From Utricularia gibba (lineage: Eukaryota > Streptophyta > Magnoliopsida > Lamiales > Lentibulariaceae), in assembly GCA_002189035.1 (NCBI GenBank), contig NEEC01000014.1:2544501-2608500 (forward strand): a stretch of DNA of 64,000 nucleotides. Reading direction: 5' to 3'. The notes under the pieces are model-generated. The model was not told the origin of the DNA. It did no database searches and saw only the letters and a program-made list of their open reading frames with translations. Below, piece by piece: positions 35,315-36,662 of the stretch. Position numbers and translations under genes: made by a program. Position 1 is the stretch's first letter, and each line of letters begins with the position of its first letter.

Positions 35315-35611
35315 ATGGAGAAGAAGGCGTTTGCAATGTTGTGCTTCCTGTTTGTCATGCTCCTCCTCTCTGGTAAGCAAAATGCGTCATGAATAAGGAA
35401 TGAGAACTGGGAAGGCGTCTGTAAACTGTTTCACGGTTGCAGGAAGTGTGGTTCCTGGAGCTGAGGGGAGAGTCTGCGAGACTTGGAGCAACACCTTCAA
35501 GGGGGGTGCATGAGCGACACCAACTGCAGAACCGTTTGCCGAGGAGAGGGCTTCCCCAGCGGCGACTGCAGAGGCTTTCGCCGCCGCTGCCGCTGCTTGA
35601 AGCCCTGCTAA
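35315..35611 (+). pseudogene. Plant defensin copy 1, frameshifted
   Basis: Exon 1 (35315-35372) encodes a signal peptide starting MEKKAF with a Leu/Met/Phe-rich core. A 70-nt GT-AG intron (35373-35442) sits inside the last signal-peptide codons as in most plant defensin genes. Exon 2 begins the mature cysteine-rich peptide (GRVCETW), but the frame breaks at a run of six G (35501-35506): the reading frame meets TGA at 35511-35513, while the rest of the defensin text (CMSDTNC, CRGEGFP, and a CxC pair with final KPC) continues one base out of phase to TAA at 35609. One base is missing relative to an open frame. Either this is a dead copy or the homopolymer length is a sequencing or assembly error. 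Plant defensins are secreted antifungal peptides. Confidence 0.8.
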
Positions 35612-36254: not shown

Positions 36255-36261
36255 TATTTAA
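36255..36261 (+). promoter_or_regulatory. TATA-like box of defensin copy 2
   Basis: TATTTAA, 74 bases before the ATG at 36329. Confidence 0.5.
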
Positions 36262-36328: not shown

Positions 36329-36662
36329 ATGGAGAAGAAGGCGTATGGGGTGCTGTGCTTCGTGTTTCTCACTCTCCTCCTCTCTGATAAGCAATCCTCT
36401 TCAGTAGAGCTCGTACTCTATCATCATTCAGTGGGTGCGCGCATACTCTGCTGAGCACCATGTGACTTGTGGGGTTGGATGATTTGCAGAGATGGCAGTG
36501 ATTCCTCAAGTGGAGGCGAGAATTTGCTCGACACCCAGCAGAAGATTCAGAGGTCTTTGCTTCAGTGACACCAACTGCGCTACCATTTGCCATTCCGAGA
36601 GCTTCCCCCGCGGCGCCTGTCGAGGGTTCCGCCGCCGCTGCTTCTGCCTGAAACCCTGTTAG
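36329..36662 (+). CDS. Plant defensin copy 2, non-canonical (AT) splice donor
   Basis: Exon 1 (36329-36386) encodes a signal peptide starting MEKKAY, and exon 2 (36490-36662) a mature peptide with all eight defensin cysteines, including SDTNC, CHSES and the CFC pair ending KPC. Joined, they give 76 residues, normal for a secreted gamma-thionin-fold defensin. The junction is odd: where copy 1 has CTCTG|GTAAGC, this copy has CTCTG|ATAAGC, so the expected donor is AT and the intron would be AT-AG without a U12-type donor. A GT at 36435 would also keep phase, adding 16 residues to the signal region. The gene may splice inefficiently, use that cryptic donor, or be non-functional. It is a tandem duplicate of the frameshifted copy about 1 kb upstream. 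Confidence 0.8.

Follow-up and report, generated by a model that had tools for sequence, protein, structure and literature searches.

Two tandem defensin genes and their homologous introns

The window is a 64,000-nucleotide stretch of the Utricularia gibba genome (C98:2544501-2608500; the assembly comprises 100.09 Mb in 516 contigs), and it carries a tandem pair of defensin genes, here called copy 1 and copy 2. Their features are listed below, with a slash marking the exon-intron boundary.

35315..35372, forward strand: copy 1 exon 1, last exonic base 35372, donor GTAAGC intact
35373..35442, forward strand: copy 1 intron, 70 nt, GT...AG
35443..35611, forward strand: copy 1 exon 2, with a frameshift: the six-G run (about 35503-35508) ahead of the second cysteine lacks one base
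36255..36261, forward strand: TATA-like box of copy 2, motif TATTTAA, 74 nt before the ATG
36329-36662, forward strand: copy 2 defensin gene, from ATG at 36329 to stop at 36662, with a single phase-1 intron
36329..36386, forward strand: copy 2 exon 1, 58 nt, phase 1, encoding the signal-peptide core (19 residues) and the first base of the split codon
36387..36489, forward strand: copy 2 intron, 103 nt, AT...AG, ATAAGCAA...TTGCAG, donor CTG/ATAAGC
36435..36436, forward strand: phase-compatible GT proposed as a rescue donor, TGG/GTGCGC; used with the normal acceptor it would give an intron of 55 nt
36490..36662, forward strand: copy 2 exon 2, the signal end followed by the mature defensin RICSTPS...KPC with eight cysteines, and the stop
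36492..36494, forward strand: internal ATG, in frame, where copy 2 exon 2 begins; its use on unspliced RNA would yield a defensin of 56 residues that lacks the signal peptide
36519, forward strand: codon for R, the first residue of the copy 2 mature peptide

Splicing of copy 2 at the ancestral junction would give a 76-residue precursor with a mature peptide of 47 residues. The PF00304 (gamma-thionin) profile matches this product with 59.2 bits (cut-off 25.1) across positions 1-47 of 47, and the solved structures nearest to the peptide are the plant defensins 7c31, 6dmz and 2lr3. All eight cysteines are kept in the mature peptide, as the first-pass annotation had reported. Copy 2 shares with the plant defensins of PF00304 the 47-residue eight-cysteine peptide, the signal peptide and the single phase-1 intron in the signal region, but differs by its AT intron donor: the layout is conserved and the donor is lost. 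A TATA-like motif identical to that of copy 2 lies 67 nt before the ATG of copy 1, and the box is also found upstream of two further defensin genes on contig C409, described below.

The donor of copy 2 reads CTCTG/ATAAGC, where copy 1 has CTCTG/GTAAGC. At the same intron position and phase all three other genes of this class have GT (GTAAGC in copy 1, GTAACC in both C409 genes). Comparison of the genes thus upholds the initial claim that AT has replaced the GT donor, and the 5' end of the copy 2 intron is not the GT of a U2-type GT-AG intron. In plants, GT-AG introns make up about 98.7% of the total, and the minor non-canonical types jointly account for about 0.09% (PMC6310983). Because the site is the homologous intron position of four paralogues, with GT in all but copy 2, and because non-canonical types are so rare among plant introns, we regard the AT as more than a chance dinucleotide. 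The introns of copy 1 and the two C409 genes measure 69-74 nt and sit at the plant minimum; that of copy 2 is some 30 nt longer.

Copy 1 had been taken as an intact reference next door, a role that it does not fill. Its reading frame ends early in exon 2 (...FKGGA*), and so the two neighbours do not make a comparison of an intact with a broken gene. The shortfall in the G run is either a second lesion of the tandem pair or a homopolymer error of the assembly. PPR frames listed for this genome run for hundreds of codons without breaks, a lenient check since the search lists best matches; on this basis homopolymer errors do not look common.

Homeologous genes and the history of copy 2

Five gamma-thionin matches were found in the genome: copy 1, copy 2, a tandem pair on C409 (C409_A and C409_B) and a more distant gene on contig C2. 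Both C409 genes have intact frames and GT donors, and serve as the intact comparators. The pair (110000-115400) adjoins a second ferrochelatase-2 gene, and in the window, too, a ferrochelatase-2 gene lies ahead of copies 1 and 2; we take this gene to be FECH2 and another neighbour to be NRAP, names that reflect our own reading of the proteins rather than a database assignment. The NRAP-like neighbour was found on C98 only. The fifth defensin (positions 1490-1735 of the extracted C2 locus, reverse strand) has a frame of 81 codons with no break in it and seems to lack the usual signal-region intron.

In the tree, copy 1 groups with C409_A (98% bootstrap; informative sites 9 versus 2 and 2), which makes C409_B, with its GT donor and full frame, the direct counterpart of copy 2. 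The order on C409 is FECH2-B-A, and compared with the window the two defensins are flipped with respect to FECH2. Inverting copy 1 and copy 2 together as one block would produce this arrangement, which is consistent with the tree.

Between the mature peptide of copy 2 and those of the other genes dN/dS is 0.29-0.38 (dS 0.75-0.89), and we conclude from these ratios that the peptide was maintained by selection through most of its past. In a simple neutral simulation that assumes one indel per ten substitutions, an intact frame with all cysteines survived in about 10% of cases at 0.05 substitutions per site and in about 3% at 0.08. Past selection and the simulation together imply that the donor was lost late, or that the gene is still in use. 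The longest branch of the tree belongs to copy 2 (0.25 versus 0.11-0.12), which also has 15 unique replacement changes, compared with 4-8 in the others (4 in C409_B). This faster change is suggestive of relaxed constraint, though a relative-rate test on replacement change was not significant (P = 0.07), and it could also reflect positive selection.

Predicted splicing of the copy 2 transcript

What sets copy 2 apart is most likely a single G-to-A transition at position 1 of its sole intron, and this would remove the U2-type 5' splice site. The computed U1 duplex energy at the donor was +0.3 kcal/mol in copy 2, compared with -6.4 in copy 1 and -3.4 in the C409 genes, suggesting that U1 pairing would be badly weakened. 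We relied on these energies in place of a donor position-weight matrix, which was built from rough Arabidopsis-like frequencies. The AT dinucleotide and the weakened pairing both support the proposed loss of the normal donor. Nor did a U12-type intron fit: the donor is ATAAGC and carries neither ATATCC nor GTATCC, in line with the first reading of the site. GC donors in copy 2 were also enumerated, and all were poor matches.

Should the first step of splicing still occur, the A at position 1 would be expected to block the second, given that the intron has AG rather than AC at its 3' end. The closest studied case is the Aspergillus niger telomerase RNA intron, whose donor hexamer AUAAGU is nearly that of copy 2, with A at position 1. 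This intron is cut but not ligated, the second step being blocked, and an A-to-G change at position 1 makes the spliced RNA dominant (PMC4299874). The half-reaction of A. niger makes an RNA 3' end, a use of which copy 2 gives no sign. In fission yeast the effect of an A at position 1 varies with context (PMC4299874).

Copy 2 would then yield mainly unspliced RNA or a stalled intermediate. Without splicing the frame runs for 41 codons before a stop, so that this RNA would encode at most a truncated peptide of 41 residues and no secreted defensin would be made. The 56-residue defensin that could start at the internal ATG at 36492 would, if made, not be expected to be secreted.

Cryptic sites might restore a product. 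Nearby cryptic sites are often activated in plant splice-site mutants (PMC11420051), and several donor and acceptor pairs in copy 2 are in frame, among them 36404/36491 (88-nt intron), 36413/36491 (79 nt) and 36435/36489; these would link the signal core to the mature peptide and add some 6 to 16 residues. The GT at 36435 had been put forward as the rescue donor, and sequence enumeration confirmed its compatible phase and the addition of exactly 16 residues. Its plausibility is weakened by poor U1 pairing and by the 55-nt intron that it leaves, shorter than the 69-74 nt of the three sibling introns and than the functional minimum of 70-73 nt for plants (Goodall and Filipowicz, as cited in PMC1626468). 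The phase-0 GTs at 36404 and 36413 depend on an acceptor at 36491, the second AG, two bases past the normal one; their U1 pairing is unfavourable (+1.9 and +1.0 kcal/mol, respectively) and they score low in the rough matrix. We consider rescue through any of these sites unlikely.

It is quite improbable that the species has GT and that the AT stems from an error of the assembly or from a rare allele in the plant that was sequenced. The base does rest on a single assembly, in which a search for a second allele or haplotig of the locus returned the window itself as the only full-length match. Errors in long-read consensus sequence are mostly homopolymer indels, and the AT is a substitution; the long unbroken PPR frames indicate that the quality of coding bases looks good. 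That the defensin is still made despite the AT, by true AT-AG splicing or by an exon join between the two copies, is very unlikely. Efficient splicing of an AT-AG intron by the U2 spliceosome would accord with a nine-base donor that equals that of copy 1 except at position +1, and with the retained coding frame and cysteines. The stalling before exon ligation of an intron with A at position 1 and a terminal AG (PMC4299874), and the share of about 0.09% that minor non-canonical pairs together hold among plant introns (PMC6310983), make a working AT-AG intron highly improbable. A splice that removes the 1,117 nt between exon 1 of copy 1 and exon 2 of copy 2 would join the two in phase and yield a full-length, normal-looking precursor; since it needs read-through beyond the end of copy 1 and skipping of the copy 1 acceptor, we give it the slimmest chance of all.

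Probable loss of function and related systems

Judged from sequence, copy 2 belongs to an old tandem pair of genes for secreted defensins and has probably become a pseudogene recently, through loss of its splice donor. Most likely this would be an ordinary event of duplicate-gene decay. With copy 1 separately frameshifted, neither gene at the locus should make a normal peptide on this assembly, and the C409 pair stays intact. A working gene would equally be expected to show the undamaged exon 2, acceptor and promoter-like box that copy 2 has. The first-pass annotation had described the locus as a natural test of splice-site loss, which is fair as a proposal.

A real loss would make the locus a clean and small case of duplicate decay, in which two different single lesions can be set against an intact homeologous pair within one genome. 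Should copy 2 still be functional, it would represent a natural and rare case of AT-AG or cross-gene splicing in a plant. A literature search for defensins in Utricularia gibba returned two papers that mention both terms; each uses 'defensin' once, and this species is the subject of neither. The word 'defensin' is absent from the 2011 transcriptome paper on this species. RNA-seq libraries exist for U. gibba (PMC8333044).

Natural and induced G1-to-A mutants of 5' splice sites carry the same base change as copy 2 in an intron that is otherwise kept. In contrast to such mutants, the change in copy 2 is what the assembly shows for a tandem duplicate, and its effect on the RNA is a predicted one. 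Some non-canonical U2 introns are spliced in plants, which speaks against the loss reading: splicing of a U2-type AU-AC intron has been seen in an Arabidopsis reporter, and plant introns of this type share the A at position 1 with copy 2 (PMC7263676). The copy 2 intron differs from them in its conserved AG end, and all three AC ends that we considered as alternatives gave products out of frame.
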